Assembly (NCBI RefSeq): GCF_964204645.1
Contig: NC_134035.1
Location: 5,766,501 to 5,830,500 of the forward strand
Length of the DNA stretch: 64,000 nucleotides
DNA from: Tubulanus polymorphus
Taxonomy: Eukaryota; Nemertea; Palaeonemertea; Tubulaniformes; Tubulanidae
Direction: 5' to 3'
The position numbers and the translations under genes were made by a program. Below the pieces are notes generated by a model that ran no database searches, was not told the origin of the DNA, and worked only from the letters and a program-made list of their open reading frames with translations. The first letter of the stretch is position 1; each line of letters starts with the position of its first letter. This document shows, piece by piece, positions 37,865-61,584 of this stretch.

Positions 37865-39433
37865 TCATGTCGCTTTGCACCAACCCGGGCTCCAAACACC
37901 GTCGAAACGTCTCGGATCACAATTCGGATCTTCCGGCGGAAATATAGCTGGTCTAAGCGTTTCTAGATAATCTAAGAATTCTAATTTCATCTCTGTAACG
38001 ACTCCAGGAAGCGCTTCTACAAGGTTATTCCTCTCAACGGGGTCCGCTATCAGATCGTATAACTGGACCCGATCGAACGGCCAGCCCCTATCAGGCGATC
38101 GACGTTGGCGCCGAATACGATTTTCTGTTCGATAGTTATACGATTTCCCGTCAGATGGCGGAGGATACCACCCGCTGTACGGCCCCGGGTCCCCGACGAT
38201 AAGTTTAAAGCCATCTTTACGAATCGCGGCGCCTTTCGACAGCTCGTCGATATTATACACGATTCTATTTCTGGGATGCCGTCGATGGCGATTTTTTATC
38301 GCGTCCCACTGATCTATCCCATCGATGTTCGAACCTTTTATGGCATCACTGTCACCTCCTGCCAGAGCTAGAATAGTAGGCAGCCAATCGACGGCATGGA
38401 AAAGTCCGTTATAGACGAATGGAGCGCTAGGTATCAGTGAACTGTGTATAAATGCTACAGATCTCGTGCCGCCTTCCCATAGAGTATGCTTAGCACCCCG
38501 TAACGGCCAATCGTTCCCGCCGAAAGACGGGGTTCCACCGTTATCGGTCGTAAATATCAAAACCGTGTTTTCCCATAAACCGGCTTCACGCAGCGCCCTG
38601 GTCACATTACCAACACCTTCGTCCAACGCCGAAACCATGCCCAAAAACTTGCGGCGATCCGCGTTCTTAACGTGGTTGTACATGTCGGTGAAACGTTTCG
38701 GTACTTGTAGCGGAGCATGGACATTCTGATAGGCCAAATACAAAAACATCGGCAGTTTGGTGGTACCGTGTTCGGCGATAATCTCCTCCGCTCGTTTTGT
38801 GAAAGCGAACGTCGAATACGTGCCGTTCTGGTCGCGCACGATATCGAATTTATCCCTGAAATCCAACCCGGTGAATCCACTTTCGTTTAGTACGTGCGTG
38901 TAATGGTCAGCTCGTCCGGCGTAAAATCCGTAGAAGCTGGAGAAACCACGTCGTGTCGGGGTGTAATCCCAGTCGCAGAATCCTAAATGCCATTTCCCCA
39001 CCGCGTGTGTTTCGTAATTGAGTTCCCGCGCGGAGAGGAGCGTCGGTAGAGTTGTAAACCGAGTGGGTAACCCGTACGGTCTTGCCGCCGGTACGTAGCT
39101 ATGCTGTAAGCCAGTGTGGTACGGATAGAGACCGGTCAATATGGCCGCTCGCGACGGAGAACACACAGGTTGCACGTACGAATTGTTCAGTATGACACCG
39201 CCTTTGGCGAGCGAGTCGAGGTTCGGCGTACGAACGTCAGCGTTGTGCCATCCGACATCGTTCCAACCGAGATCATCGGCTACGATGAGTACAATATTCG
39301 GCCTTCGTCCATTCTGAGAATCGCTCGTCGCCCAACCGCAGAATAAAATCTGTAGGTATACGGTTATGACTTTCCCGGTGATAGCCATGGCTGTTCTGGT
39401 AAACGGGATATAAACACGCGAGCTATCAAACAT
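37865..39433 (-). CDS. ARSB: Arylsulfatase B-like sulfatase, intronless
   Basis: Lysosomal or secreted sulfatase; family members remove sulfate from N-acetylgalactosamine 4-sulfate in dermatan/chondroitin sulfate. One uninterrupted frame of 522 aa, close to human ARSB (533). Visible active-site parts in order: the metal-binding Asp pair in VADDLGWNDVGWH (about 51-63); the formylglycine signature CSPSR (about 91-95); GKWHLGF (about 146-152); NVHAPLQVP; TTDNGG; and RGAKHTLWEGG with the late Lys. All catalytic residues I know for the family are present. The first ATG gives MFDSSRVYIPFTRTAM; the second, M16, leads straight into a signal peptide (ITVYLQILFCGWATS) and is the likelier start. No intron or acceptor is needed. 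The next gene rightwards, also intronless, is divergent. Confidence 0.93.
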   Translation of the reverse strand: MFDSSRVYIPFTRTAMAITGKVITVYLQILFCGWATSDSQNGRRPNIVLIVADDLGWNDVGWHNADVRTPNLDSLAKGGVILNNSYVQPVCSPSRAAILTGLYPYHTGLQHSYVPAARPYGLPTRFTTLPTLLSARELNYETHAVGKWHLGFCDWDYTPTRRGFSSFYGFYAGRADHYTHVLNESGFTGLDFRDKFDIVRDQNGTYSTFAFTKRAEEIIAEHGTTKLPMFLYLAYQNVHAPLQVPKRFTDMYNHVKNADRRKFLGMVSALDEGVGNVTRALREAGLWENTVLIFTTDNGGTPSFGGNDWPLRGAKHTLWEGGTRSVAFIHSSLIPSAPFVYNGLFHAVDWLPTILALAGGDSDAIKGSNIDGIDQWDAIKNRHRRHPRNRIVYNIDELSKGAAIRKDGFKLIVGDPGPYSGWYPPPSDGKSYNYRTENRIRRQRRSPDRGWPFDRVQLYDLIADPVERNNLVEALPGVVTEMKLEFLDYLETLRPAIFPPEDPNCDPRRFDGVWSPGWCKAT

Positions 39434-40568
39434 ACATTTTGGGTCATTTTCATCATGTGAATGAAATCAAATCATTATCCAGGAGAATAGAAGAGACATG
39501 AGTAATGGGTCCAAAGGTAACATTTTACCATCAACTTAATTAACTAATCTAAAACCGTATACAGCCTTTCACAGCCATATAGAGGTCTTGCTCGTGAGTT
39601 CATAGCTCATTTTGACCGACATACATAACAACAAAAGATATTCTGGGGATTTACAAACTACGAAGGACCGTCGCATAAATCACTTAAGTTTTTGTGTTTG
39701 AACTTGAAGTAATGAGACTGATTCGATTAGTCAGATTACTCCAAGATCATGTGGTCTAAAACGATGTCGCCCATGAGTCCATGATTTTGACCACCAACAT
39801 GGAGCGTATAGTCAAGTCGAAAAACCACATTGTCTGCAAGATCTTTTGGCTTTCGGACTCAGGCTTCTCGATGTCGAAAAAGCCGAAAAATACAGGCTCC
39901 CATCACTCTCATCCCGGAACTTTATATTCGAAAGAAAAGTGACAGAATGTCCCGCTTAACCAACGCATAACGAGTATCCGAAACATCGTTGAAAACAATT
40001 CTACAGAACTTTAATAATAAATGCACAATATCGTAATTGACTTGACGGATGGGCAAACATAGGCGCGAACAGAGTGGGCGAGGGATTTTTAATCTGTTAA
40101 AACGCTGTGGAATGTTACATAGTTAAAACCGATATCAAAACATTGTCAGAGACCATAATGACGCTGTGTTCACATGATCGTAATTATCTAAATGGTAATT
40201 TTATGTTTATCCGATATTGACGATCAGTCATCAAGTCACATTATTAATATCAATCATTGCTGTTGTAATGTCATTCGAAGCGTTTGATTTATTATGCATT
40301 TTACGTTTTGCCGATTAATCGAAGTTAGTAGTTAACATCATAATATTCTATACAGCTAAGTGGGGTCCATTATGTTATTACTACCTGAGCGAGGTGGAAC
40401 TGCGCTCCTCTTATCTCCAACTGCGATTCCAACTCACTACTACCCAAAGTGACGGACAAGGTGGAAGACTCTCGGAGGCAATCGGCTGACTGACTCGAGG
40501 CAGTGGCTTCGTCAGGGCAGGAAATTCAACTGCATTTTAACGCGAAGAAAAAGAACGCACCAAACGGA
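39434..40568. promoter_or_regulatory. Shared upstream region of the divergent sulfatase and channel genes
   Basis: About 1.1 kb between two divergent intronless genes. It must contain both promoters. I see no clear TATA box, repeat or other gene. Confidence 0.35.
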
Positions 40569-42299
40569 ATGAAGGTTGAGTCCCTCGAGTTGGTAGAGGA
40601 GATTACCCTCGACGGTAAAGATCGGGCTGACGATAAATCAGCTTTCTACGACGCTATCACGCGAGACGACGACAAAACTGTTCGAAACATTTTACTACAA
40701 CAGGGGAATTCTATCGACAGGTCGAAATTATTAAATTACGATTTCGGTTTCAAGGTCGATTTTAGAATTTGCGACGATGTCCCAGTATTGGCCGGGTCGC
40801 CGTTAACGTTAGCCTGCGTGTTCAACGCCAGGAGAACGCTCGAATTGTTTTTGGACGAAGGCGTGGACTTATTCGACGTGGATATCCGCGGTAATAACGT
40901 GGTTCATACGTTGATATCGGCGGCAAAATCGAGTCAAAAACTAGAGCGCGAAATGATCGACGTGTTCGACTTGATAATGAAACGTTTACAGTCGAATACG
41001 CAGAAAGAAATGATTCTACGGACGGTTAACAGCGATGGATACTATCCGTTAGACTGGGCCATGAAAAATAAAACATTTCGATTCTACGCCCGGATTATGG
41101 ATACTGATGGAGTGTACAGACACCTCGTGACGAGATACGGACTGTACTCCAGGTACGAGTACAATCTCGGCGAGTATGACTACGACGGTTCGCGGATGTT
41201 TGTCAGTCCGTTTTTCGGTATGTCTAGTATTTACGCGACCGATGAATTGAGACGGCTACACGAAAGTCGATTACTGATTCATCCTGTTATGCGAGCTCTC
41301 AGTTCGCTGGTAAAACGGAAAAATCGACCTTTATTCGTAGCTATGTGCCTGACGAGGTTGCTGATTATGCTAATTTTTACGGCCTTGCCGTTTTGTCGAT
41401 TCGTCGATTTTCGTGAATTCCGTTCGCTAAGTCACTCGAACTGTTCTGTAGATATATCAGGACTTTATTCTAAACGCGGCCGTCAGACTATTCGACTAGC
41501 TACGTATATATTTTGCGCGGTGATCTGGTTCAGTCTAGCGACCAGACTCATATCGTCGATTGCTTGTAATGTGAGTTACTTCTCACGATCCAGTCATCGT
41601 CGGAAAGAGCGTATACATTTCTTTCAAACGTCACTTCACGCGTTCCTGTATTATACTTCCGACTTTCCCCATCACATCTTGATGACCACATTGATGATAG
41701 CGAACACGATATACACGCGTCAACAGTTTCCACCATATCTCAACTACGTCTACCTCTTGTTCTTACCGATTCAAATCATCGATATTTGCGATTTGTTCCA
41801 ATGCGTCCCGCACATCGGATTCTTTTTCATCAGTTTTCGTAACATGATTCGAGCTATGACCAGATTCATCGTTATATTCATAGTAGTTTATATGGTGTTT
41901 ACCGTAGCATATTCGACGCTTTATCTATCGATAGATATTTGCGAATATGGTTCGTTTATCCATGTCCTATCGGTTGTATTTCTTACCATGTTAAACACTG
42001 TAGATTTTACCGGTCATCCTAACTCACAATTATTCGTCATTTATCAAATGTTGTTGGTAGTAGTTGTTGCTATTACGCTGTTGAATTTTCTGATCGCGGT
42101 AATGACGGAAGCCCACGCCACGGACTTGGAGCTAAAAAGTACGCTATTGGCGGTAACCAGCATTCGCATCCACAATGACGGTGTTTGTTGGTTGAAATAT
42201 TCCCGCGTGGCGCTGAGACTCGCGCCGACCAGTCTAGGTATGAAAAACCTTACGGTTTTCGTCAGAAATGACTGCCAAATAAACAGAAATCATTTCTAG
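40569..42299 (+). CDS. TRP-like cation channel with ankyrin repeats, intronless
   Basis: Probable six-TM cation channel of the TRP superfamily (576 aa from the ATG at 40569). The frame is open from 40494 but has no earlier ATG. An ankyrin-like region covers about residues 20-180 (SPLTLACVFNARRTLELFLDEG; SDGYYPLDWAMKN). Hydrophobic segments follow: about 260-280 (S1), 315-340, 360-385, 390-420, 430-455. The pore-helix segment FIHVLSVVFLTMLNTVDF precedes S6 (VVVVAITLLNFLIAVMTEA), whose LLNFLIAVM is typical of TRP/TRPV channels. The C-terminal tail is about 60 aa and no classical TRP box is evident. No introns are visible, unlike the multi-exon neighbours; AATAAA followed by an A-run (about 42398-42409) lies 100 bp after the stop. 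A retrocopy origin is possible. Subfamily and stimulus cannot be assigned. Confidence 0.78.
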   Translation: MKVESLELVEEITLDGKDRADDKSAFYDAITRDDDKTVRNILLQQGNSIDRSKLLNYDFGFKVDFRICDDVPVLAGSPLTLACVFNARRTLELFLDEGVDLFDVDIRGNNVVHTLISAAKSSQKLEREMIDVFDLIMKRLQSNTQKEMILRTVNSDGYYPLDWAMKNKTFRFYARIMDTDGVYRHLVTRYGLYSRYEYNLGEYDYDGSRMFVSPFFGMSSIYATDELRRLHESRLLIHPVMRALSSLVKRKNRPLFVAMCLTRLLIMLIFTALPFCRFVDFREFRSLSHSNCSVDISGLYSKRGRQTIRLATYIFCAVIWFSLATRLISSIACNVSYFSRSSHRRKERIHFFQTSLHAFLYYTSDFPHHILMTTLMIANTIYTRQQFPPYLNYVYLLFLPIQIIDICDLFQCVPHIGFFFISFRNMIRAMTRFIVIFIVVYMVFTVAYSTLYLSIDICEYGSFIHVLSVVFLTMLNTVDFTGHPNSQLFVIYQMLLVVVVAITLLNFLIAVMTEAHATDLELKSTLLAVTSIRIHNDGVCWLKYSRVALRLAPTSLGMKNLTVFVRNDCQINRNHF

Positions 42300-43615: not shown

Positions 43616-46600
43616 ATGTTTATCATGTTACCTGTTTTACTTCTGTTCGCCTCGGCGATTGTGGTCGATTCAACTGGTAAGTCAAACTTATATAACTATT
43701 ACCAAAGAACCCATAGATTAAGTCCCACAGTTCTCAGAGTTAAAACTCGTTTATTCGATCTTGTGCCTCTTATTTATTTATTTCTTTGATTGATTAATTG
43801 ATTGATTTGAGTTGTGCCCCTTACAAATCCACCAGTAACACACACACACACACACACACTGGAACACACAATGCTATGGGTTACCAGGTATTGTCAATCT
43901 TATTCTTGCCCAAACTTAACCATAAATGAAATCCTACGTAGGCCTATAACAAATAGTTTTGAAATTATCGATTAAGATTTAACCATTTAAACCCTAAGTT
44001 CATTCTCAATGTAATTTGATCATGCCACAAAAATTTGTCGATTGGCCTACACTTTTTTCGTGAAACCTACGGGATTTTTTTTCATTATTACGGAAAATCT
44101 CCTGAATATCTTCTTTTCGTTTTTTATTTATGTTACAGATTACAAGATGGTATGTTACCACACTAACTGGTCACAGTACCGACCCGGTGAGGGGAAGTTC
44201 ATGCCCGAGAATATAGACCCTCATCTGTGCACGCATATCATATATTCGTTCGGTAAAGTTGTCGGTAACGATATCGTACCGTACGAATGGAACGATGACG
44301 ATACCGATTGGTCGAAGGGCTTGTAAGTGTTTGATTTAGATTTTGAAAGTTCTGCATGGTCAAAATCCAATTATTCAAATATTGAATCGCGGCACACTTA
44401 ACACAAACACTCACCATCGTCCGAGGTTACATTCAGTTGTAAAATTCTCTACCAAGGTTTTCAGTTTCTTAATCAAAATTGAATGAACTATAATTGTGAA
44501 GGTACACAAGATTCAACGAATTGAAAAATCAGAATCCTAGTTTGAAAACGCTGATCGCGATTGGAGGTTGGAACCACGCTAGTGCTGGGTTTACTGAAAT
44601 GGTCGCAACTAAAACCAATCGTGCTCAATTCGTGAAGAACGCGATCGCTTTTCTGGAGAAACGAGGTTTCGACGGGCTAGATTTAGACTGGGAATACCCC
44701 GCTAATCGTGGAAGTCCTCCCGAAGATAAACAGAACTTTGCTCTTCTTTGCAAGGTAAATACTCTAGATTCTGTTACACCCGATAATGGTCTTTCAAAGA
44801 AACTAACCTGAAATACCCAGTTTCAACTGTCATTGTTTATGATAAATCTTTCTTCTCTTCCGCAAAAGGAACTGCGAGAGGCTTTTGATCGGCATTCTAA
44901 CCGGTTTTTGCTGACAGCTGCTGTGGCCGCGGGTAAAGCAACCATCGAAACTGCATACGATATACCAACTATATCCAAGTACGTATAGATAAATTCTATA
45001 AATAATGAAGAATAAAGTCCGAAATCATGTTTCCTTAATTCGACATTTTGACTTATATCTTATATAATCATTATCAGGAATGCTGCCAGCGTATCTGTCA
45101 GGGCTGGTTAAAACAAATCCATATCCTTTGAATAAAATGTCTAAACCAAATTTTCCTTAGATTTTTTTCTTATTAAGATATTTGGATTTCATCAATTTAA
45201 TGGCTTACGATCTTCACGGCGCCTGGGAAAAAAAGACAGGCCACCATACTGCGCTGTATCCGCGGAAGGATGAAACTGGTGATGACCGGATTCTGAACGT
45301 CGTAAGTTGCTGTTTTTCTTAGCAATTTATTCGGTACCAAAGCTGTTGGAAATTCAAAATTTTGATTTCATTCTCTATGGTCGTTTTGAAAAGAAAATGC
45401 ATAGTTGAAACTCGGAAAATACGTTTTGCTGTTAAATTCTCTCTCCAGGATACAGCAGTTAATCTGTGGTTAGCAGGTATCTCAGCTGGCGGACAACCTT
45501 CAACTAAACTAGTCCTCGGTATGGGTACATATGGACGTGGTTTTACACTTTCAACGTCCGATAAAGGAATGGGTGCACCAGCTTCCGGTCCATGTTCAGC
45601 TGGCCCATATACCAGAGAAAACGGATTCTTATCCTACTACGAGGTACAGTCCATTTCTTTCACTCTTGTAACTATCGCCTTTTCACGTTAACTTCAGCAA
45701 ATGTCAGTGATCGGAATCGGTTGATAAAATTTCCCGAGAAATATGAAATTTCAAATGACCGGCAGTTCAGCTCTAGAATGAATTAAGTATAAACTAAACT
45801 TACTTTGCATTAACGTACATTACTGATAAAATAGCGAACAATCTAGAGATAATTGTTTATTAATGGTTTTCATAAGTTTATCAAAAGCGTTTGACACAAT
45901 TTATCACTAACTCTGCAAGTCAAAATTAGAACATTATGGTTTAAGTGGCATACCTTATTTTGGTCCCAAAATTATCCTATCGAATAGGAAACAAGTAGTA
46001 ACGTTCAGTAATTGCTTATCCTCAGTTCTCAATATTACTTCTGATGTCCCTCAAGGCACTATTCTAGGGCCGCTAATTTTTTTTATTTACATGATACATG
46101 TCATGTTATATCATATCATATCATACCTGAAGTAATCTCAAAAGTATAAAAATGTAGGGTTGTTGATTTGACTCGTATTAGTCAGTGATTGTTCCGCCTT
46201 TTGGGTCGTTGATTTGTCTATGTAATGCCTTTAGATCTGTAACCTTTTTAAAAATGGTGCAAAACGATTTTTCGACGAGGAAAGTAAGGTACCATATGCT
46301 GTTGTCGGAAACGTTTGGATCGGGTATGATGACAAAGAAAGTTTACTAATCAAGGTAAGAAATTGTTTAAGTTGAGTCATGGATAGGAGTAAAAATTCTT
46401 TGAATTTTGTAACTTCTGCTGTATTTTCTTCTATAGGTTAATTATCTAAAATCGAAAGGGCTCGGCGGTGGTATGATCTGGGCGTTGCCTTTAGATGATT
46501 TTACCGGAACACATTGCGGACAAGGGAAATACCCTCTGTTGAAGACGATTTCGCAATCTCTTCGTGGAGAGGTTGTCACCGTGTAAGAACATTTAGTTAT

Positions 46601-48267
46601 ACGTTCGAGCTATGGATAGAATTCAGGTTCAATATATTATATATTATGATTTCGCATGAGAAATGATTCAAACAACCTATTAGATTCACCTTCCTTATCT
46701 ATCATAATATGTTAACGAGTCAATTACTTTATCTACAAACAGTTCAATAATATCAATTTGAATCAATTTTCAGTGACCCCAACATTGAGACAACGTAAGT
46801 GAATTTTTTTGAACACATCTTCCCTATGGACAGGCGATTAGAGGTCTTATGCCAATCAGTCCTCTGACTGTCGTACATCGACATAATGATCACAAACGAG
46901 AGTCTTTTCATCATTTTTCTCAAATTGTTTATTTTGGACGAAGTAGCAATTAATCGTTTATGCAATGTATCATGAAAATCATCATATAATGAAAATCAAT
47001 TATTGTGTTTGATAACCGATTTGGCGTTAGTCACATCGAAAAGGCGCCAGATTCCCGGTTAGTACATATATTTTGCAACTTGTTCTCGTTTAAGCAGCAC
47101 GACTGTAGCAGAAACTACGACCACCGAGCAGTAAGTAGACAATCAGCCGATAGGATGGCAAAAATAATTTACGATCACTCCTGAGGCTTAGAGGCCACTC
47201 TCCCAGTCAGGACGGTGTTTCTCCAATGCGTAGGAGACCAGTCTACTATGCTCGCAGTCTGAACGGTGTCTCTTGATGCGTAGGAGACCACTCTCCCCTG
47301 TCTGGACGGTATCTTCGCATAAGAGACCCCTCCATCACTCTGGACGATGTCTCCTGAATCGCAGGAGACCATTCATCCTGTTTAGTGGACTGTGCCCTAT
47401 GGACTTATTGTGTTTGACCACCAATTTGGCGTTAGTCATATCGAAAGAGCGTTGTGGTTGTAGTTAGCACATATATTTTGCAACTTTTTCTCATTTCAGC
47501 ACCACGACTGTAGCAGAAACAACGACTACTGAACAGTAAGTAGACAATCAGCCGATAGCATAGCAAAAACGATCACTCCTAGAGCGTAGCCAATCTCCCT
47601 ATCTGGACGGTGTCTCCTAATGCGTAGGTGACCACTCTCCCACTCTCCCCTGTCTAGAGACGATGTCTCCTGATGAGTTAGAATCAACTTCTCCTTGACG
47701 TGCAATAATCGTCCCATCACGACCATGCCAAGCAGCTGACCTTAACTTTTAGGGACGGGATAATTTCCCGGAATGTCTCAATGATACTCGCTAAGACAAT
47801 AAATTCATTGCGAGTTGCTGGTCGTGAAATTACCGAAAATCTATCATGCATTTCAGGCCGACGACAACAGTAGGTCATTCAGGAGGTAAGTTTCGACAAA
47901 AATAATGAAGTTGATGACTGCAGGCCAGGTTGACTTGTATTGGATCTCTCGCATTCTTATCACTGATAAAATTGTTTCAATAACTTATAGTTATTGTATG
48001 TTTACATGAATTACCTAAGATGAATTGTTATTAACTACGATTCGTATGTTTATCGTGTAAAATGTTTTATCTGATCCAGGAAATGGCGGTGGAAGTTCCT
48101 TTGTAGGATGCAGCAGTCAGGCCGATGGATTCTACAGGGACCCGGATGATTGTGCTAAATATTACCGATGTGTCGGTGGTATACAATACGACTTCAAATG
48201 CCCTCATGGCCTCTTTTTTGATTTACAAAGTAATGCTTGTAATTGGCCTGATGCAGTTCAGTGTTGA
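43616..48267 (+). CDS. Secreted GH18 chitinase with CBM14 domain, copy 1
   Basis: Endo-acting hydrolase of chitin beta-1,4 bonds. Thirteen exons give 500 aa: 43616-43676, 44139-44322, 44502-44754, 44869-44978, 45178-45301, 45449-45643, 46235-46354, 46437-46582, 46774-46794, 47095-47130, 47500-47535, 47857-47885, 48080-48267. A signal peptide (residues 1-20) precedes [14 protein letters not shown], the first GH18 strand. [11 protein letters not shown] and [10 protein letters not shown] follow; E146 is the acid/base in DxDxE. Later come MAYDLHG and [15 protein letters not shown]. The linker holds two [10 protein letters not shown] repeats, each its own exon, likely O-glycosylated. The last 62 residues are a CBM14 chitin-binding domain with all six Cys. 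Layout equals animal AMCase/chitotriosidase. The stop codon overlaps the AATAAA signal. The acceptor of exon 10 was chosen to match copy 3. First of three tandem copies; role (feeding, cuticle or defence) undetermined. Confidence 0.94.
45864..46105 (+). pseudogene. LINE reverse-transcriptase fragment in intron 6 of chitinase 1
   Basis: With frameshifts and stops, the sequence reads the RT blocks SKAFDTI, a diverged KLEHYGL block, [10 protein letters not shown] and [13 protein letters not shown], characteristic of non-LTR retrotransposon RT domains. Shorter remnants sit in the same intron of copies 2 and 3. Confidence 0.8.
47165..47715. repeat. Minisatellite in chitinase 1 linker introns
   Basis: Units such as GTCTGGACGGTGTCTCCTRA then TGCGTAGGAGACCACTCTCCC recur in the introns around the second linker exon (47165-47395 and 47575-47715). 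The same units occur at 54380-54480 in copy 2, and at 60545-60750 and 60910-61110 in copy 3. Confidence 0.75.
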
Positions 48268-50100
48268 ATAAAGTAATCATAGGACATGATATCAACGGAG
48301 AGACTTGTGTTATTTCATATCGTGATATACTTTTGATAAGCATTTCTGCTAATTTTTATTCAATCATTAATTCTAGTACATAGTAGGATAATCAACATTT
48401 TTGTTTCTCGGGCTACTCGTACCGTCTGGTCTGCCTGTGAGTCTCGGTGCGTGTGTGTGCGCTTGACAGCTACTGGATTCGTTAATAGGTGGTTGATCCA
48501 AATGAAACCTGGGTACAATGTTAGTTTACAGGGGTCTAGTTGTGCAAGAATGGACCCGCTGCATCACCTAGCGGAAGAACTAGTGTCACTAAAAACTCTG
48601 ACGTCATAACTGAGGAATGGGGTGAAATTCAGATGTAGCTATTGGCATTGGGTACAACATATACAAAATGCAACATGGAAACTAACGCATGGTAATTTCG
48701 GGGTTCGAGTCAGAGCCCGATTACCGTTGTCGCCGATAGATGGCTTGTTATCAATATTAATTATGCAACAATTATGCAAACCTTCGGCGAAGATTTTAAC
48801 GCACCTCTCAGAGGGAGGGGATAGTCGCCTCTCGGGGGCTGGTTTTATAGACTGGTGTATCTTTACTGTCGTTGTCTTGCCTTAAGCCCAACGCACACGG
48901 CAAAACATTTGTTTCGCCGAAACCGATAACACGATTTTCAGAAATCGTTTTTTGCTCGTGAAAAACTTTTTTCAGTTCGGCTTTTTTTCTTTTGCCTACC
49001 CCGCAAACGGCATAACAAAAAACATCGAAAACGTTTTTTCGGTGCCGTGTGCGTTGGGCTTTATTCGTCATCAGATTTGTTGACAAGTTGCTGCCAATGG
49101 TGACCACCTGATCTTCTCTTTCTGTTGGTTTAAGGCATCGTGCCATCCTCTGTAGGCCTATTAGGTGCGAAAGTTCTTCGGTGCATACAGTGTTAGGGGG
49201 GGGGGGGGGTATCTGCTGACGTAATTACAAATGCTACGAGTAACGACCTACTTATTTGATGTTATCTCAAATAAATCATGCGCTGGTAATCTATCTTTCC
49301 GACATCATTTAAATCGTTTTTACGTTTTCTAGTATTTACACATGTCAGAATATTTAAAAAAGATGCATCACGTATATTGCGTAAAAATTTCACCTTTTAT
49401 CTAAATTCTAATCGTTTACAAGGATATTTCAGTTGTTCGATATTCTTGTTACCTCCACGTTTGTTTTCCTTCCGTGGGATTCATCTCATCAGTCGCTGTT
49501 CATATGTGTTGAAAAAACAACCTATCTTTGCGTGAATACGTATGGCTTGCGGGGACCACACGTTCTTAAAAGTTCTTTATTCTTTTTCCATCGGAAAGGC
49601 ACATTCAAGTTAGTTAAAGGAATGACCCTAGCTACAATAGCTCCCCGGCATAGTACCACCATCATTTCATCACTGGTCATTTTGATGATAAACTGTGAAC
49701 ATGGACTATACTTTAGTTTGCACTCTTCATTTCATTTCTCGATTGAAATGATTGAATTTCGAATAATATTCATCGATTTTGTCGATTTTTACAATAAGCA
49801 ACACGAAATTTACGCACGTTTACAACATGTGACAACAACTACACTATACTTGTCTATTATGATTTTCTATTGAGAAACATGTCAATTTTAACGAATAAAC
49901 AATATTATTCTAAGTGAGCTCATTTAGAGACAATGATTTGTGCCATCTATGTTAATTACAAATATACCTGACGTTATACAACGTCGGAATTTTATTTCAT
50001 TTTGAAAATTCAATTCAATACGAAATAACCGTTGTAATTAGTCCTATTATTTTCGAACAGATTCTACCGTTCCCAGACTTGTTCGACATTTCAAATGTCT
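48268..50100. other. Intergenic DNA between chitinases 1 and 2
   Basis: 3' flank of copy 1, the Harbinger-like MITE, a G-run at about 49196-49209, then from about 49255 the upstream part of repeat unit 2. No further gene is supported; short frames here differ from those in the paralogous DNA. Confidence 0.5.
48885..49060. mobile_element. Harbinger-like MITE downstream of chitinase 1
   Basis: Ends AGCCCAACGCACACGGCA and TGCCGTGTGCGTTGGGCT are perfect inverted repeats. The flanks are TTA (48882-48884 and 49061-49063), the TWA duplication typical of PIF/Harbinger elements. At the homologous site after chitinase 2 (about 55180-55200, GTCTTCCCTATTTACGAATT) the element is absent. Confidence 0.88.
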
Positions 50101-50109
50101 CGATTCAGC

Positions 50110-50200
50110 TGATAAGATTATATATTCAAAACATCTATTCTCTATAAATACTGTCTACAGGGAACCAGGGATCCGAAGCTGGACACGATCAGCTAACTTC
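50110..50200 (+). promoter_or_regulatory. Chitinase 2 promoter: GATA site and TATA box
   Basis: TGATAAG (50110-50116) and TATAAATA (50143-50150) lie about 90 and 55 bp before the ATG at 50201. The short distance implies a 5' UTR of about 20-25 nt. Confidence 0.68.
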
Positions 50201-53200
50201 ATGATGTTACCTGTTTTACTTCTGTTCGCTTCGGCGCTTTTGATTTCTGCAACTGGTAAGTTACATTGTTATCAAAAGCCAAGACCAAGTTCCCGAGTTC
50301 TTGAACTCAACAGTTAAAATTAGTTCATTTTCAATGTCAAAATCTGAACTCACAACTGTGTGTCAGTCTTGCAAAAAGTTAAAACTCAAATTTCTATCTT
50401 ACGTAGTCGCTATCTGTTATTTCAGGTTTCCAGTGAGTTGGCTTTTTCCATGAAACTGCTTCCAGAACCAAATTTTTATTTTCATTTGTTAAAACTGACC
50501 CTTGGGCTTTTTATCCCTTCGGCTTTGTATAATTATGGACATCTCTTAAATTTCATCTTTTCGTGTTTTATTTATGTTACAGATTACAAGATGGTATGTT
50601 ACCACACTAACTGGTCACAGTACCGACCCGATGATGGGAAGTTCATGCCCGAGAATATAGACCCTCATCTGTGCACGCATATCATATATTCGTTCGGTAA
50701 AGTTGTCGGTAACGATATCGTACCGTACGAATGGAACGATGACGATACCGATTGGTCGAAGGGCTTGTAAGTATTTGATTGTGAAACCCTTAAAATGATT
50801 GTTTGGTCTATGATTTTTTATGTAATTCGAATACATCTTGCCTTCTTTGCCTCACAGGCCGAACTCCGATGTGCTATTGCGATTGAGCGATATAAAAATC
50901 CCTACAACTAACAAAAATATTAAAATATAATTGTAAAGGTACACGCAATTCAACGAATTGAAAAATCAGAATCCAAGTTTGAAAACTCTGATCGCGATTG
51001 GAGGTTGGACCCACGGTAGTACTGGGTTTACTGAAATGGTCGCAACTAAAACGAATCGTGCTCAATTCGTCAAGAACGCGATCGCTTTCCTGGAGAAACG
51101 AGGTTTCGACGGGTTAGATTTAGACTGGGAATACCCTGCTAATCGTGGAAGCCCTCCCCAAGATAAACAGAACTTTGCTCTTCTTTGTCAGGTGAATTAT
51201 CTATTCCGAAACAACTATTGATGAAATACTATGTCCGTATCGTGACGATGTATAGTGGCTCCCACACTAATAAGACGAGAAAGATGAAGTCCGAAGTTTC
51301 CTAAACGTTATTAATTCATTGATTCGACGTTTCGACGATAACCTTATAGTCATCTCCAGGAATACTGAGTTAACAAAAATATGAGATATTAATGATTTAT
51401 CTCCTAATTTTGTTAACTCAGTATTCTTGGAGATCATAGTCGATATGTCGAATCAATAAATCATCAGCTTTACGGAAACTTCGGACTTCATCTTTCTCGT
51501 CTCATTAGTGTACGATTCCTTATACTATTATGTAACACCTGACGATGGTTTCTATAATAGAGACATATTAGTCAGAAATACTCACTTTCATCTGCCTTTC
51601 TCTATGATCAATGTTTTTCTCTTCCAAAAAGGAATTGCGAGAGGCCTTTGATAAGCGTTCTAACCAGTTACTTCTGACAGCTGCTGTGGCCGCGGGTAAG
51701 GCTACCATTGAAACTGCATACGATATACCAACTATATCCAAGTACGTATAACTCGCTAAATAAATATCCTCTCCACACTAGTAATGAAGAATAGGAGTCC
51801 GAAATATTTCCTGGATATAAATCCGCATACTTTTAAATCTTTTCTAGGCCAAATTTATGAATGATGAAATCTTCTGCTGTTTTTAATTCTAATTCAGATA
51901 TTTGGATTTTATCAATTAAATGGCTTACGATCTTCACGGCGGCTGGGAGAAAAAGACAGCCCACCAGACTGCGCTGTATCCGAGGAAGGATGAAACTGGT
52001 GATGACAGAAATTTGAACGTGGTAAGTGATACTTCTTTCATTTATTATCGGTTCCAAAAACCTTATTCAAGAGTTAGATTCAAGGCTCTAGGGTTAATGC
52101 CACCACGTTCGAATCCCTGTGTGAGGAGGATTGGTTGTAAGAAGAACTACTATTTGAAATGTAACTTCTATCAGCTACCATTAGTCGAAGGGATGTAACT
52201 ATCCGAATTCAATCTCAATTTGGAAAATTTTGCTGTTTATTCTCTCTAGGATACAGCAGTTAATCTGTGGTTAGCAGGTATCTCAGCTGGCGGACAACCT
52301 TCAACTAAACTAGTCCTGGGTTTGGCTACGTATGGACGTGGTTTTACACTTACCAGTACCGTTAAAGGAATGGGTGCTCCAGCGTCCGGTCCATGTCCAG
52401 CCGGCAAATATACAAGAGAAAACGGATTCTTATCCTACTACGAGGTACAATTTGTTTCCTTCTCTCTTTAAGTAACTGTCGCCTATTTCAGGTCTACCTT
52501 CAATTTTCATTTATGGTGTTGGAAAAACGTTGTTGTTTACAGTGGGTTGATCTTATCGAGGAATGTAACGTTCAAATGACCGGCAGATAATTTGTTTTTA
52601 GATATAAGTACTACGTAGAATAATAACATTATGATTTACGTAGCATACCTTATCTAACTAATAGAAAACAAGCCGTTAAGTCCAATAAGTGTTTATCCTC
52701 ACTCTCGATATTACTTCTGGTGTCCCCCAAGGATCTATTCTACGACCTCCTATTTTTATTTTTCATGGTACTTATCATACCGATATCATAAACGAAGTAA
52801 TTTCAAAGGTATCATAATTTATATTTGTTTATTTGTCCACGTTTTACCTCTGTAGATCTGTGACCTTTTTAAAAGTGGCGCACAACGATTTTTCGACGAG
52901 GAGAATAAGGTACCATATGCCGTTGCGGGAAGCACTTGGATCGGTTACGATGATAAAGAAAGTTTACTTATCAAGGTAAGGAATTGTTTAAGCGCATGAA
53001 CGAGAGTAGAAATTTCGATTGAATTTGGGAACTTGTGTTGTATTAGGTGAACTATTTGAAATCGAAAGGGCTCGGCGGTGGTATGATCTGGACATTGGCT
53101 TTAGACGATTTTACCGGAACACATTGCGGACAAGGGAAATATCCTCTATTAAAGACGATTTCGCAATCTCTCCGTGGAGACGTTGTCACCGTGTAAGTAC

Positions 53201-55001
53201 ATTTTCATTAGAGCTGTGCTGATATGTAGATTAAGTATATTTTTCTAATTAGAAATTATTCTACCAGGGCTTCGTATTAGAGTGTTCATGGATCGTACTA
53301 ATATCTAAATTTTTTCATTTTATTGGGGTTCGAACTTACCGGTACTATGGGTCACGAGTTTGGTTACGAAGTTTAAATGTTATCTCATGGTCGTTCAGAT
53401 AAATTCGTTGGGCAAATACATTTAATATGGTGTTATTGTGTGTGGAATTGGACACAGGCACCCAAGACCTGTCTGCCCCGGTCCTTCGTGTTAATCAATT
53501 CAAGGCGTGCTGAAGACTGTAAAAGACATTTGTGACGATGTTTTCATTCACTGGAAACATATGTAGTGATTTCTCGGTTATAGTGTGAGTGAATGCCCGC
53601 AAACTCATTTATGACACATTTTACTTGTAAAAGCTAGGTATTTTAGCTTTAGAAAAACAAAGAAAGGTTGATTCCAAATATTTCTATTAAGAATAGAAAT
53701 GCTGCCTGTCTGATCATTTTCAGGGATTTTGAATACGAGAAAATAGGTATCATCATTTTTGCCTTTGTGTAACATGTGCGCTGTGCAATTGTATTTATTG
53801 TTGAGAAAATAAACTAAACTGAAACTCAAATCTTAAACTAAAAATACCGTTCGGTGATACATATCATTCTGGATAATTTTTCAGTGACCCCAGTATCAAG
53901 ACAACGTAAGTAAAATCTTTGAATATATCAATCCGTGGCTATGTTTGTTGCGTAAAGGTTTCGATGTCATTGTTCGATCACCAATAACTTGAAACTGATG
54001 CATATAGATCGTGATCGGGGGATTTACAATATAATTCGAGCCTGTACACTGTTTTGCTTAAATTGCACATTTAGATATTAACTTTGAAGTAATTCTTTAT
54101 GTACATTAAATAAAATCATGTAAAGCACTTATTGCATTTTCCAAACAATATGACGTAGTCACGTCAAAAAAGTACGTGGTTACGGTCAGTACATTTGCAA
54201 CATCAAAATTTGTAAATTTAAGTTTACGACCAGTCGACAGGATATCGCAAAAATAAGTGCTTCTACATCAAATATGTATGATACAATACCACATAGGCCT
54301 GGAGCCAGTTCGACTGTTTGAGTTACTCTGAGATTCCAGGCTTCCTTAACATTGGCCATGAACTGAACCACTTTATTTTTCTCTGGACTGTGTTTCCTAA
54401 TGCGTACCACTCTCCCAGTCTGGACGCGGTGTCTCCTACTGCGTAAGAGGCCACTCTCCCATCCTGGATGGTGTCTAAATTACGAGTAAAAGAACACTTT
54501 TTCATGTTGGCAATTATGTAATATTTTCAGGCCGACGACAACAACAGTAGGGAATCCAGGAGGTACGTTTACTGTTTATTGACAGAAATAATGAAGATGA
54601 TGAACTACAGGCCTGCTGACTTGTACTGGCTATCCCTCCTAATATTATCACTGATCAATAATGTATCAATAACTAAATTATATTGTATGTTTATATGAAT
54701 TACGTTAGATGAATTAGTATCAACTATAATTTGTATATCGTGTAAAATGTCAGATGAATTGTTATCAACTATGATTCGTATTTTTATCGTGTTAAATGTT
54801 TTATCTTATTCAGGAAATGGCGGTGGAGGTTCGTTCGTAGGATGCAGTGGTCAGGCCGATGGTTTCTACAGAGACCCGGATGATTGCGCAAAATATTACC
54901 GGTGCGTCGGTGGTGTACAACATGACTTCAAATGTGAGAATGGTCTCGTTTTTGATTTACAAAGTAATGCTTGTAATTGGCCTGATGCAGTTCAGTGTTG
55001 A
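50201..55001 (+). CDS. Secreted GH18 chitinase with CBM14 domain, copy 2 (short linker)
   Basis: Eleven exons, 475 aa: 50201-50255, 50583-50766, 50939-51191, 51632-51741, 51898-52021, 52250-52444, 52856-52975, 53047-53192, 53885-53905, 54531-54562, 54814-55001. The signal peptide is [17 protein letters not shown]. Catalytic motif [10 protein letters not shown] has E144, and all GH18 blocks match copy 1 closely; exon 2 differs from copy 1 at only a few bases. The two [10 protein letters not shown] linker exons of copies 1 and 3 are missing. Surrounding intron sequence is still recognisable at about 54150-54250, but the exon is gone. Splicing from the 53905 donor to 54531 keeps the frame, so the linker is simply shorter. 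The CBM14 domain has six Cys. The stop overlaps AATAAA (55001-55006). Intron 8 is enlarged to about 700 bp by unrelated sequence; intron 3 carries a snap-back MITE. Confidence 0.93.
51251..51525. mobile_element. Snap-back MITE in chitinase 2 intron 3
   Basis: Inverted arms CACACTAATAAGACGAGAAAGA and the reverse complement of TCTTTCTCGTCTCATTAGTGTA, with inner arms around CTCAGTATTC. Same family as 929-1170. The intron is about 440 bp here against about 115 bp in copies 1 and 3, so the insertion postdates the duplication. Confidence 0.8.
52655..52790 (+). pseudogene. LINE RT remnant in intron 6 of chitinase 2
   Basis: ATATTACTTCTGGTGTCCCC then CAAGGATCTATTCTACGACC reads [13 protein letters not shown], the same RT block as at 45864-46105, in the matching intron. 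Confidence 0.7.
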
Positions 55002-57070
55002 ATAAAGTGATTCTACCACTTAACATCAACGGAGAAACTTGAGTTATTTCATATCGTGATGTACTTTTGATGAGCATTTCTGCTAATGTTATTTTTTATA
55101 ATCAGAAGGAGGTGATAGTATCCTAATTGCTCAGGGCTTTATAGACCGTTATTACATGCATCTTTTGTGTCGTTGTCTTCCCTATTTACGAATTCGTCAT
55201 CAGTCTGAATTGGGTTGGCTGAAAGATTGCTGATCGACAATGCGTGACCACCCGATCTTCTCTCTCTGCTGGTATAAGGCATCGTGCATCCTCTGCAAAA
55301 ATTCTTCGCTCACTTTCGATCGTTAAGATTTCTTTACACTGAACACTGGGTCTGCTGACGAAACTACCAACCGATGCGTCGCAGGAAAGCACCCGTTTTA
55401 TATCAATTATATCAAAAGTTCATAAAGATGTTTTTATGAATTTTTGGATATAATGCGTACCGTGCTGGTTCGAAAGAGTCGATGTACACCTGTTTTTCCG
55501 CGTGCGTTATAGAGATACTAATATTTTCCTTCTAGTCTTTTTAGTAAAAAAAAACTGAAAAACGTTGTCATTGAAATTAACAACCGTACGTAATAACTTG
55601 CCTGAACTGGAAACTTCGATTTTGGTTCATGCGGTCCATTTCCTTAGAATGAACGATCTATTCCCGGAAGAAGAGTTCGTTAGGTATCTCGTTTGAATAA
55701 ACGTTTATTTCCTCATCGAAGAATTCAACAGCGCAGTTAATTATTGATAAAATTGTGTTGTCGCGCGCACGCACCGGGATTCCGAATATATGATTCATTT
55801 TGATTGAATGAAAATACTCACGATAACTAATTAAATGTGCCACCTCCAGATTCTAACATAACGTATCGAAATAATGGTATCGCAATAAACAGTGAAAATG
55901 ATTAAGGCTCTCGAACTACGTGATGTTTCAATTTGTCATCGCGTTCTCAACATGAAGTCCGTGGTTTTTTTGAAGTGTTATGAAAATGTACCGGCGAGAT
56001 TGATATTGCTTATTAGATTTATAAAACGTATATAAATACATCATTTTCCGTTCTAACTACAAATTTGTATCCCGATTCACAAGTGTACGGTGCACGTACG
56101 AGGCTGCTACAGCAGGAATACGAGGTGAGGGCATTTCTTCGGTTTTCTGACATATTTTCTCGCTTCCATCGAGATCAGACAATAGTGTATTTTATGGAAA
56201 ACCTCTTTCTTCTATCAGCCTGGATCCGCCCATGCAAGCTTGGCCCTAACTCTAATCCATTTTCATTTGATTTGATCAAAGTTCACTATATACACATCGG
56301 GATTTGAAACGTCATTTACGTATAAAATTTGGGTCCAGAACTGTGTTTAGGTTGTCGACTGATTGATGCAGTAATTATTTAATCCGCTGCTAATAGCTAT
56401 ATCGTGCCATCATTTTATCTGTAGTAAGTTCAATAAGAAACAGTTAATATGTCTGCGGCGGATATAGGGGAACTTGTGTTTAGACTTGAACGATCAAATT
56501 ATTTTACAGCCCCCGTTCATTTAGTCAAGAAAATCGGTGTACTCCAGTCCGAGAGTACATCTAATATTGCCTTTATGAACATCGAAGTGTCATTTTTGGA
56601 TGTGACAAGTCTCTCAAAATTGACCCCCGAATATGCTCTGTACTTTAGTTAGCGCTATTCATTTCAATTCCTTTCTCCTGATTAAAATGATTGAATTGTG
56701 AAATAATTATTCATCGATTTTGTCGATTTTTACAATAAACACGACACAAAAGTTAAGTACGTTTACACATGTTACAACAGCTTCTATAAAATTGATCTAT
56801 TCACTAATTTTGTACGGAGAAACATGTCACTTAAACGAATAAACTAAAACATTGTAAGTGAACTGATTTCGAGACAATTAATCAACAAATTGATTAACAA
56901 ATAATTCGAGCTATTTGTGTTGCAAATGTAGTGACGTTGCTGGTGCGTTTTCAAAACGTCTAAAATTAATTGCCATTTGAAAATTCAATTCAATACGAAA
57001 CTGAATGAATCGTCATAATTAGAGAACATATTCTATACCGTTCAAAATATTTGCAATTTCTCGATTCAAC
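55002..57070. other. Intergenic DNA between chitinases 2 and 3
   Basis: 3' flank of copy 2 (homologous to that of copy 1) followed, from about 56210, by upstream DNA of repeat unit 3 (GCAAGCTTGGCCCTAACTCT matches about 42925). About 55300-56200 has no counterpart that I can see. No gene supported. Confidence 0.5.
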
Positions 57071-57164
57071 CGATGAGATTACATTCGAAACATCTCAAAT
57101 TCCTCTATATATATATACTGTCTACAGGAAACGGCGACACAAGAAGACACGATCAACTAACATC
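57071..57164 (+). promoter_or_regulatory. Chitinase 3 promoter: altered GATA site, TATA-like run
   Basis: The position of TGATAAG in copies 1 and 2 reads CGATGAG here (57071-57077), which breaks the GATA consensus. TATATATATA (57106-57117) and CTGTCTACAGGAAAC are at the same spacing as in copy 2. Confidence 0.6.
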
Positions 57165-60100
57165 ATGATGTTACCTGTTTTACTTCTGTTCGCTTCGGCG
57201 CTCGTGATTTCTGCAACTGGTAAGTTACATTGTTATCAAAAATCAAGATCAAGTTCCACAGTTCTTGAACTCAAGAGTTAAAACGGGTTCATTTCCAAAG
57301 TTTTGATCCGAGAGTCAAAACTCAGATTACTGTGGAACTGGATCATACTTACCAGTTATAACGTAGTTATCTTATGTAGATGTCTATCCTTACCCAAACA
57401 TAGATGGAATCGTTACAATTAATTTCGAGATAATTGATTAAGATTTTTTTATGTTTCAAACCTCAAGCTCGTTTTCAATATTATTTTACCACAGGGTCCA
57501 GTTTTACGAAAAAGTAAAAAGCCAAATTTCTAGTTTAGTTGCTATTTGCGACTTTATGTTTTCGATGAGGACAACACGCTTCATGCTTTTTCATGAAACC
57601 ACTGCACCCAGAAGCGAAATTTCGTCTTTTTTGTGAAACCTGGCCCTGGGCATTGTATACTTTCGGTTTTCTATCATTATGGACACTCTCTTGAATTATT
57701 GAATTACTATGGACAATCTCTTGAATTTCATCTTTTCGTTTTTCTGTTTATTCTACAGAATACAAAATAGTGTGTTACCACACCAACTGGTCACAGCACC
57801 GACCCGATGATGGGATGTTCATGCCCGAGAATATAGACCCTCATCTGTGCACGCATATCATATATTCATTCGGTAAAGTTGTTGGTAACGATATCGCACC
57901 GTACGAATCGAACGATGAAGATAGCGGTTCTTCGAAGGGCTTGTAAGTGTTTGACCGTTGATATTTTGAAGGTTTTGAAATTGTTCTGTGTGGAAATGAA
58001 CAAAATGAAATTATTTAAATATTGAGTGAAGTATTACCGTTAGACCATTAGATTTTCTTGTTAATTGTGGGTTTTTATTCAATTGAATCAAGTGACAGTC
58101 ACTTGTCTATAGAAACAAAACTATGTTTTTAAGCCTAGATTCTTAAAGGCCGAATTAATAAGCTAATTATAGCTAATCAAGGCCGTGCATTTGCCATTGC
58201 GATAATAAGCAACATGAAAATCCCTACAACTAACAAAAATATGATTGTAAAGGTACACGCAATTCAACGAATTGAAAAATCAGAATCCAAATTTGAAAAC
58301 GTTGATAGCGATTGGAGGTTGGACCCACGGTAGTGCTGGGTTTACTGAAATGGTAGCAAAGAAAAAGAATCGTGACCAATTTATTAGGAACGCGATCGCC
58401 TTCCTGGAGGATCGAGGTTTCGACGGGTTAGATTTGGACTGGGAATACCCCGCTAATCGTGGAAGTCCTCCCCAAGATAAACAGAACTTTGCTCTTCTTT
58501 GTCAGGTAAATATGAGCTATTCTGTAACACCCGGTGATGCTGATCTCTAATAGAGACAGCCGGGCATACTCAGTTTCGTCTGCCTTTCTCTATGGAAAAA
58601 AAATGATTTTCTCTTTCTAAAGGAATTGCGAGATGCTTTTGATCGACATTCTAACCGGTTTTTGCTGACAGCTGCTGTGGCCGCGGGTAAGGCTACCATT
58701 GAAACTGCATACGATATACCAACTATATCCAAGTACGTATAACTTCCAAAGTGAACTCCACACATTAATAATGAAGAATTAGAGTCCGCAATGTTTCCTG
58801 GTTATACATCCGTATTCTTTTAATCTTTTCCTAATCTGATTTATAAACTGTTGTTTTTCTAATTCAGATATTTGGATTTCATCAATCTAATGGCTTACGA
58901 TATTCACGGCGGCTGGGAACAAAAGACAGGCCACCAAACTGCGCTGTTTCCGAGGAATGATGAAAGTGGTGCTGACAGAAATGCGAATGTTGTAAGTCAC
59001 ATTTGTTCGTATATAAATGTCACCAGTTCCAAAGTCGTTGGGAATAGGTAGAATTCAAGTCTCTCGAGGGTTATAAGAAGAACTACTATTTGAAATGTAA
59101 CTTCTATCAGCCAACATCACAGTCGAAGGGATGTACCTATCAAAATTCAATTTCAATTTTGAAATTTACTTTGCTGTTAATTCTCTCTAGGATGCAGCAG
59201 TTAATATGTGGTTAGCAGGTATCTCAGCTGGCGGACAACCTTCAACTAAACTAGTCCTGGGTTTGGCTACCTATGGGCGTGGTTATACACTTTCTACTTC
59301 CGATGAAGGAATGGGTGCTCCAGCTTCCGGTCCATGCCCAGCTGGAAAATATACAGGGGAAGATGGATTCTTATCCTACTATGAGGTACAATTTATTTCT
59401 TCCCATCCTTAGTAACTATCACCCTTTTTTCGTTCGACCTTCAATTTCAAATATGTTCGAAAAACTCGATGTTTACAATCCGATTTGCGTGGAATACCTC
59501 ATTTGGTACCAAATCTATCAAACTTACAGAAGCCAGGCCGTTAAGACTAATAAGTGTTTATCTCACTCTCGATATCAATTCTAGTGTCCCCCAAGGCTCT
59601 ATTCTAGAGCCTACTATTTTCATTATCATGATACTTAGCCTATCATAATATATCATAAAATATCTGAAGTAATTCCAAAAGTATCAGAATTTAGAGTTGT
59701 TGATTTGTCCACGTTATACACGTATTATCTCTGTAGATCTGTGACCTTTTTAAAAATGGCGCACACCGATTTTTCGACGAGGAAAGTAAGGTACCATATG
59801 CTGTTGTCGGAAGCACTTGGGTCGGTTATGATGATGAAGAAAGTTTACTGATCAAGGTCAGGAATTGTTTAAACGCATGAACGAGAGTAGGAATTTTGAG
59901 TGAATTTCGGAACTTGAGTTGTATTTCATTCTTAAGGTTAACTATTTGAAATCGAAAGGGCTCGGCGGTGGTATGGTCTGGACGTTGCCTTTAGATGATT
60001 TTACCGGAACCCATTGCGGACAAGGGAAAAACCCTCTGTTAAACACGATTTCGCAGTCTCTACGTGGAGAGGTTGTCGTCGTGTAAGTACATTTACATAA

Positions 60101-61584
60101 GAGTTTGGTGATGATATTTTTATGAAGATAAAGTATGTTTTCCAATAAGAAATTATTCAAACGGGACCTAAGTATTAAAGTACTAATTTCTAAAAAGACT
60201 ATTCAATGATGTCAGCTTGAATTATTTTTCAGTGACCCTATTATTGAGACAACGTAAGTACAATCTTTTATCATGATTTACAAACTAATTAGAATCTGTT
60301 CTGCTTAGGTTGCGTATTTCATATGTTAACTTTGAAGTTATCCTTTATGTACATCAATCACACCATGTCGGCTGAATTAATAAATTATTGTGTTTGACAA
60401 CCGGTGGTCACATCGAAAAAGCGCTATGGTCGCAGTCACTACATGTGCAACTTGTTCTCGTTTCAGCACCACGACCGTAGCAGAAACAACGACTACCGAG
60501 CAGTAAGTAGACAATCAGCCGATGGGATAGCAAAAATTTACGATCACTCCTGGAGCGTAGAGGCCACTCTCCCAGTCTGATGGTGTCTCTCTAATGCGTA
60601 TGAACCCCTCTACCCGCAGTCTGAATGGTGTCTCCTGACGCGTAGGAGGCCGCTCTCAGAGTCTGGACTGTATCTCCTAATGTGTAGGAGACCCCTCTAG
60701 GTATCTTCGCGAAGGAGACCCATCCATCAGTCTGGACGATGTCTCCTGTACACATATTTTGCAACTTGTTCTCGTTTCAGCACCACGACTGTAGCAGAAA
60801 CAACGACTACTGAACAGTAAGTATACATTCACCCGATAGGATGACAAACAAATATAGGCTGGAGACAGTTCGACACTACTACAGTTTGAGTTATAGATTC
60901 CAGGCTCTCCAAACATTCAGGACGGTGTCTCCTAATGTTTAGGAGATCAGTCTTCTATCACCACTATCCTTGTCCGGTGACTCAAAATGCGTAGGAGACC
61001 TCTCTCAGTCTGAGCGGCGCCTCCTGATGCACAGGAGACCACACACTGCCAGCCTCGGCAGTGTCTCCCAATGCGTAGGAAACCACTCTGGTGTCTCATT
61101 ATTGGTAAAAAAGCACTTGCTCACTTCCTCATGGCTATTAGAATACATGTATTTTCAGACCGACGACAACAACAGAGAGCAATTCAGAAGGTAAGTTTAC
61201 TTTTATAAACAAAAATAATAGAGATGATGAACTGCTGGCCTAATGACTTGTACTGGTTCCCTCGGTAATCTTTATCACTGATCAAATATGTACCAATAAT
61301 TTATACATGTAATTAGTGTTCATATAAATTGGGTTAGATTAATCATTAACTATAATTCATATGTTTATCGTGTAAATTTTTTTTAATCTTCTTCAGGAAA
61401 TGGTGGTGGAAGTTCGTTCGTAGGGTGCAGTGGCCAGGCTGATGGTTATTACAGGGACCCGGTTGATTGCGGTAAATATTACCAATGCGTCTTTGGTGAA
61501 CAATTCGACTTCCATTGTGGGATTGGTCTTGCTTTTGATTTACTAACTCATATTTGTAATTGGCCTGCTGCAGTTCAGTGTTGA
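57165..61584 (+). CDS. Secreted GH18 chitinase with CBM14 domain, copy 3
   Basis: Thirteen exons, 499 aa: 57165-57219, 57759-57942, 58253-58505, 58623-58732, 58868-58991, 59191-59385, 59737-59856, 59937-60082, 60233-60253, 60467-60502, 60781-60816, 61159-61190, 61397-61584. Signal peptide [27 protein letters not shown] with E144; MAYDIHGGW and [15 protein letters not shown] retained, so activity is likely. Two [10 protein letters not shown] linker exons, as in copy 1. The most diverged copy: the exon 2 end reads ESNDEDSGSS instead of [10 protein letters not shown], and the CBM14 domain changes around its central Cys (CVFGEQFDFHC against [11 protein letters not shown]) while keeping all six Cys. 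Stop codon overlaps AATAAA (61584-61589). These differences suggest changed substrate binding or expression; that is inference. Confidence 0.93.
57498..57643. mobile_element. MITE of the CCAGTTTCACGAAAAAG family in chitinase 3 intron 1
   Basis: TCCAGTTTTACGAAAAAGTA at the left pairs with TTTGTGAAACCTGG at the right, with TTCGATGAGGACAAC in the core as in the copies at 4641-4898. Confidence 0.65.
59525..59645 (+). pseudogene. LINE RT remnant in intron 6 of chitinase 3
   Basis: GTGTCCCCCAAGGCTCTATT reads VPQGSI, matching the RT block in the same intron of copies 1 and 2. Confidence 0.65.

Follow-up and report, generated by a model that had tools for sequence, protein, structure and literature searches.

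A tandem array of three GH18-CBM14 gene copies

Three GH18-CBM14 gene copies lie head to tail on the plus strand of the 64-kb window (the whole stretch of DNA that was analyzed). Splice models of all three copies were built by hand from the sequence and gave the following features:

43616-48267, plus strand: copy 1, intact GH18-CBM14 chitinase gene, 13 coding exons, 500 aa
50201-55001, plus strand: copy 2, GH18-CBM14 gene, probable duplicated pseudogene, 11 exon-like segments, linker exons absent
57165-61584, plus strand: copy 3, intact GH18-CBM14 chitinase gene, 13 coding exons, 499 aa
46774-46794, plus strand: exon 9 of copy 1, symmetric (phase 2-2) 21-bp microexon of the splice model

Start-to-start distances between neighboring copies were 6585 and 6964 bp, in agreement with the head-to-tail triplication of period 6.6 to 7 kb given in a preliminary description of this DNA. 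The equal length and phase that it reported for the catalytic exons were found for exons 2 to 8 (184, 253, 110, 124, 195, 120, and 146 bp) in all three copies. Every intron of the three copies is of the GT-AG type, and the copy 1 model forms a single open frame starting with a signal-peptide-like N terminus. The preliminary description omitted the 21-bp exon 9, which is shared by all copies and directly precedes the position of the linker exons.

Pfam assigned the copy 1 protein to GH18 (6.6e-98) and CBM_14 (1.3e-15). The bit scores of copies 1 and 3 were 328.7 and 319 for GH18 (cut-off, 29.6) and 57.7 and 50.5 for CBM_14 (cut-off, 22.1). Copy 2 matches exon by exon, with a broken frame. In each of the three copies, the DxxDxDxE motif reads DGLDLDWE, with the proton donor Glu140 kept, and the last exon encodes the six Cys residues of a CBM14 domain. 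Asp136, Asp138, Glu140, Tyr212, Asp213, and Trp358 (chitotriosidase numbering) are conserved. The nearest solved structures are those of human chitotriosidase and acidic mammalian chitinase (AMCase). Identity to chitotriosidase is 51 to 54% in the catalytic domain, which contains a 10-letter motif (not shown) and the MAYD motif. The products of the intact copies are predicted to be secreted, active enzymes.

The whole genome (267.8 Mb, 77 contigs) was searched for related genes. One close paralog was found, on the minus strand of contig C4 (C4:566654-568825). Its GH18-domain introns are positioned as in the array copies, a short hydrophobic C-terminal exon (MFNGTILIALFVTLVLAVHRK) replaces the linker and CBM14, and the residue aligned to Trp218 is absent. 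This architecture suggests a membrane-anchored chitinase. Neither CBM14 nor linker exons were found in this paralog, and no linker exons were found outside the array genome-wide. CBM14 was detected in at least three genes of the genome, all in the array.

Upstream of the array, the window contains a single-exon sulfatase gene (37865-39433, minus strand; Pfam Sulfatase, 2.4e-57) and a 598-aa single-exon open frame (40503-42299) that lacks a Pfam match and encodes several hydrophobic segments; judged by eye, its product is a TRP-channel-like candidate. Intron 3 of copy 2 harbors an inverted-repeat insertion (51264-51511), to which a sequence at 926-1191 of the window is related; it resembles a small DNA transposon of the non-autonomous type. 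RNA families were not found within the window.

Symmetric linker exons in copies 1 and 3

The preliminary description placed two 36-bp linker exons in copies 1 and 3 and none in copy 2, and the splice models bear this out:

47095-47130, plus strand: linker exon L1 of copy 1, 36 bp, phase 2-2
47500-47535, plus strand: linker exon L2 of copy 1, 36 bp, phase 2-2
60467-60502, plus strand: linker exon L1 of copy 3, 36 bp, phase 2-2
60781-60816, plus strand: linker exon L2 of copy 3, 36 bp, phase 2-2

The ten residues previously given as the linker product are indeed encoded; the full unit per exon comprises 12 residues, with Ser or Thr at its start and His or Gln at its end. All four exons have the donor GTAAGT, and the L2 exons of copies 3 and 1 are identical at 36 of 36 bases. 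The resulting linker peptides of the two copies are near-identical and Thr-rich, and presumably resemble the O-glycosylated linkers of other chitinases. A NAGNAG acceptor at L1 of copy 1 (47093-47098) would allow in-frame forms of 36 or 33 bp.

Changes among the four linker exons were five synonymous and one nonsynonymous (P = 0.009). Because the differences are mostly synonymous, the linker exons are very probably translated; chance or non-coding sequence was ruled out by this bias together with the consensus splice sites. The core pattern of the linker exons had four matches genome-wide, all of them in the array, and a reversed control pattern had one. The L1/L2 pair may have arisen a single time, earlier than the gene duplications: two exon sites group L1 with L1 and L2 with L2 across the copies, but the downstream flank of L2 in copy 1 is of the L1 type.

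Exons with phase 2 on both sides can be lost without a frame shift, as had been argued before, and the proposed in-frame splicing of copy 2 around the missing linkers holds at the level of phases (2 joins 2).

Copy 2 carries a premature stop codon

The preliminary description counted three complete genes. For the assembled sequence this is wrong because copy 2 carries an in-frame TAA:

51917-51919, plus strand: premature TAA in exon 5 of copy 2 (translation DFIN*MAYD)

The corresponding codon is TTA in copy 1 and CTA in copy 3, both encoding Leu, and the stop sits just ahead of the MAYD motif (translation ...TISKYLDFIN*MAYD...). The predicted product comprises 207 residues, with the C-terminal half of the barrel and CBM14 missing. 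Copy 2 shows this one stop and zero frameshifts, and its splice sites are otherwise intact.

Two features of an unprocessed pseudogene are present in copy 2: it is an intron-bearing paralog adjoining its parent (11 segments, GT-AG introns, tandem position), and its coding frame contains a disabling mutation. Relaxed constraint, a third such feature, was not seen, the dN/dS of the copy 2 branch being 0.22, with the same value before and after the stop. Since this signal of constraint fits only a recent inactivation, copy 2 was classified as no more than a "probable" pseudogene. It would have no functional product, although a locus with a lone nonsense change may still yield something useful.

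To date the inactivation, we simulated neutral evolution throughout a branch with the synonymous length of copy 2. The mean was 6.2 stops, and the probability of one or fewer was 0.0085; the data were best fitted with at most about one-quarter of the branch being neutral. The low dN/dS, the single stop, and the lack of frameshifts suggested a late event. Thus, the inactivation of copy 2 was probably recent, and the linkerless enzyme may have worked before the stop arose.

The stop might also reflect an error in sequencing, or it might be polymorphic, with the TAA being one of the alleles. Were it disregarded, copy 2 would be an ORF with good splice sites and a signature of purifying selection. 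Copy 2 would then be a working linkerless chitinase, the TAA would reflect faulty assembly or a rare allele, and functional paralogs would truly differ in the number of linker exons. The single lesion in a gene with every splice site intact, the dN/dS of about 0.21 on either side of the stop, and the phases that join in frame without linkers all speak for such an enzyme. However, the codon concerned is conserved, and its clean change from TTA or CTA to TAA leaves the frame unshifted, unlike the usual indel error of long reads. Moreover, even in a functional copy 2, linker length could simply have been lost, and tuning has no support. We consider a working copy 2 unlikely, though worth keeping in mind.

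The linker exons of copy 2 were most likely lost

The linker exons themselves are gone from copy 2, and only their flanks remain. The relevant features are as follows:

54155-54345, plus strand: decayed flanks of the linker exons in copy 2, found by local alignment (p <= 0.003 relative to dinucleotide shuffles)
47130-47360, plus strand: approximately 42-bp minisatellite with degenerate units around the linker exons, core GTCTCCTAATGNGTAGGAGACC, 7-bp inverted repeat

Three relics were recognized in copy 2: a flank upstream of L1 (54155-54200), a stretch resembling the linker donor with its downstream flank (54219-54256), and a flank downstream of L2 that is shared with copy 3 (54293-54345). In comparisons with dinucleotide shuffles, the p values of these alignments ranged from 0/300 to 0.003. 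At intron sites, copies 2 and 3 were the closest pair (455 sites, versus 237 and 325 for the other pairs; 1000 of 1000 bootstraps). Because of the flank relics, including the donor-like stretch, and because the introns pair copies 2 and 3, loss in copy 2 is favored. Most likely, copy 2 lost its linker exons, a single loss being the simplest history. The relics also fit the earlier reasoning on symmetric phases, pointing to a real loss of such exons.

Alternatively, the linkerless state of copy 2 could be ancestral, with the linker exons gained by copies 1 and 3. The position of the root among the three copies is uncertain, no close outgroup having CBM14, and within the linker intron the most similar two are copies 1 and 3. 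Against a gain stand the donor-like relic with its downstream sequence (54219-54256) and the L2-downstream flank that copy 2 has in common with copy 3, and the introns overall, which pair copies 2 and 3 and make one loss the simplest solution. We regard a gain as improbable.

If copy 2 lost its linkers, both exons would have been deleted within the minisatellite-bearing intron, and the minisatellite units may have aided this deletion. The same approximately 42-bp minisatellite, with the 7-bp inverted repeat GTCTCCT...AGGAGAC, is also present in copies 2 and 3 (copy 3, 60530-61090). It is dispersed in the genome, with arrays on contig C9, for example, at C9:1656777-1657889.

The linker exons had been proposed to be a modular means of tuning the distance between the catalytic and chitin-binding domains. 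This proposal found no support: the only copy with a different number of linker exons is truncated in the catalytic domain. The intact copies each have two linker exons, and there is thus no linker-length variation among intact genes here. A reading closer to the proposal would require that most individuals have a functional copy 2, with the stop a rare allele or an error, that long-linker and no-linker chitinases be kept by selection, and that minisatellite-driven exon loss be the source of the variation; we find this scenario quite improbable.

Possible products of copy 2

Alternative splicing of copy 2 was examined, and no in-frame option preserving the barrel was found. The frame is lost if exon 5 (124 bp) is skipped. 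Rescue through an internal acceptor in exon 5 was rejected, the sole in-frame choices costing 87 or 111 of the 124 bp. The joint skipping of exons 4 and 5 (234 bp) is in frame, since phase 0 is shared by the end of exon 3 and the start of exon 6, and costs 78 barrel residues. Copy 2 might therefore yield either the short protein of 207 residues or the product with the double skip, in a new role. However, much of the (beta/alpha)8 barrel, with the MAYD motif, is missing from each form, and the other splice changes either break the frame or remove most of exon 5. In addition, a stop codon with introns downstream (six in copy 2) is a typical target of nonsense-mediated decay. A new role for such products is very unlikely.

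Divergence of the copies and a probable conversion tract

The copies differ at 10 to 49% of noncoding sites, depending on the region, and their synonymous divergence is 0.24 to 0.28. An assembly artifact, e.g., uncollapsed haplotypes, deserves almost no credence: no support for it was found, these values far exceed allelic differences (the regional noncoding divergence by itself excludes a haplotype or assembly duplicate), and no further near-identical copies were found elsewhere in the genome.

Exon 2 stands out from this divergence:

44084-44336 (copy 2, 50529-50780), plus strand: probable gene-conversion tract of copy 1 with copy 2

Copies 1 and 2 share 98.9% identity in exon 2, whereas the flanking introns differ at 41 to 45% of the aligned sites. 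The longest run of variable sites common to copies 1 and 2 falls in this exon (permutation P = 0.016), indicating probable gene conversion. In three-copy trees, the exon topology conflicts with the intron topology because of this conversion, and the coding-sequence tree alone is therefore misleading here.

Copy 3 has lost two cleft aromatics

Copy 3 shows the changes Tyr34His and Trp71Ser (chitotriosidase numbering) and thereby lacks two aromatic residues of the cleft, which are kept in chitotriosidase, copies 1 and 2, and the C4 paralog. In the related lectin HCgp39, the residues at positions 34 and 71 make hydrophobic contacts with the bound hexasaccharide (PMC6904773). The branch dN/dS was 0.47 for copy 3 versus 0.22 for copies 1 and 2. 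Unique nonsynonymous and synonymous changes numbered 63 and 31 in copy 3 versus 59 and 60 in copies 1 and 2 pooled (Fisher p = 0.012, uncorrected). By these measures, copy 3 is evolving faster. With its raised dN/dS and the loss of both aromatics, it is a candidate for altered substrate preference.

Discussion

We interpret the locus as an ordinary tandem array of secreted chitotriosidase-like GH18-CBM14 chitinases with one probable young duplicated pseudogene, and assign this reading a probability of roughly 0.83. The exon anatomy, the stop codon, the flank relics, and the divergence are read directly from the sequence. The array would have arisen by ordinary segmental duplication. After the loss of its linker exons, copy 2 would have acquired the nonsense mutation in exon 5, probably recently, and its product would be left without the chitin-binding domain and with only half of the catalytic barrel; loss before stop is the order we infer.

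The array resembles CHIT1 and AMCase in domain order (GH18 with C-terminal CBM14), in the catalytic motif, and in four aligned GH18 cysteines. It differs from them in its linker, which is longer, Thr-rich, and derived from repeated 36-bp exons, and copy 3 differs in lacking the aromatics at 34 and 71. Frog and chicken are already known to have GH18-CBM14 genes in tandem clusters that may include a pseudogene: the Xenopus cluster contains three genes in 95 kb, and the chicken cluster contains two genes and a partial one, which is possibly a pseudogene (PMC1945033). In contrast to the vertebrate clusters, the pseudogene candidate described here, copy 2, has an exon structure kept in full and a single nonsense change.

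In Lutzomyia longipalpis, alternative splicing of a single gene, LlChit1, was shown by RT-PCR (PMC5722264). As in the array, exon variation at the junction of the catalytic and chitin-binding parts alters the C-terminal architecture (PMC5722264); in the array, however, the variation is between paralogs and is known from gene sequence. The linker exons also resemble tandem duplications of symmetric exons, in which duplicated exons of the same phase keep the frame. SNAP25 exon 5 is an example of exon duplication (PMC2581893). Unlike exons of that type, those of the array encode a low-complexity Thr-rich linker and not a folded or mutually exclusive segment.

The array seems to have been shaped by common gene duplication and decay, not by tuning of the linker; on present evidence, it represents ordinary gene-family turnover. 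It clearly illustrates, on a small scale, how symmetric linker exons with minisatellite flanks appear and disappear among tandem paralogs. It also calls for caution, as a copy that is apparently spliced in frame may still be broken. If the linkerless copy were functional, copies with and without linkers would form a natural pair for testing the effect of linker length in a chitinase.
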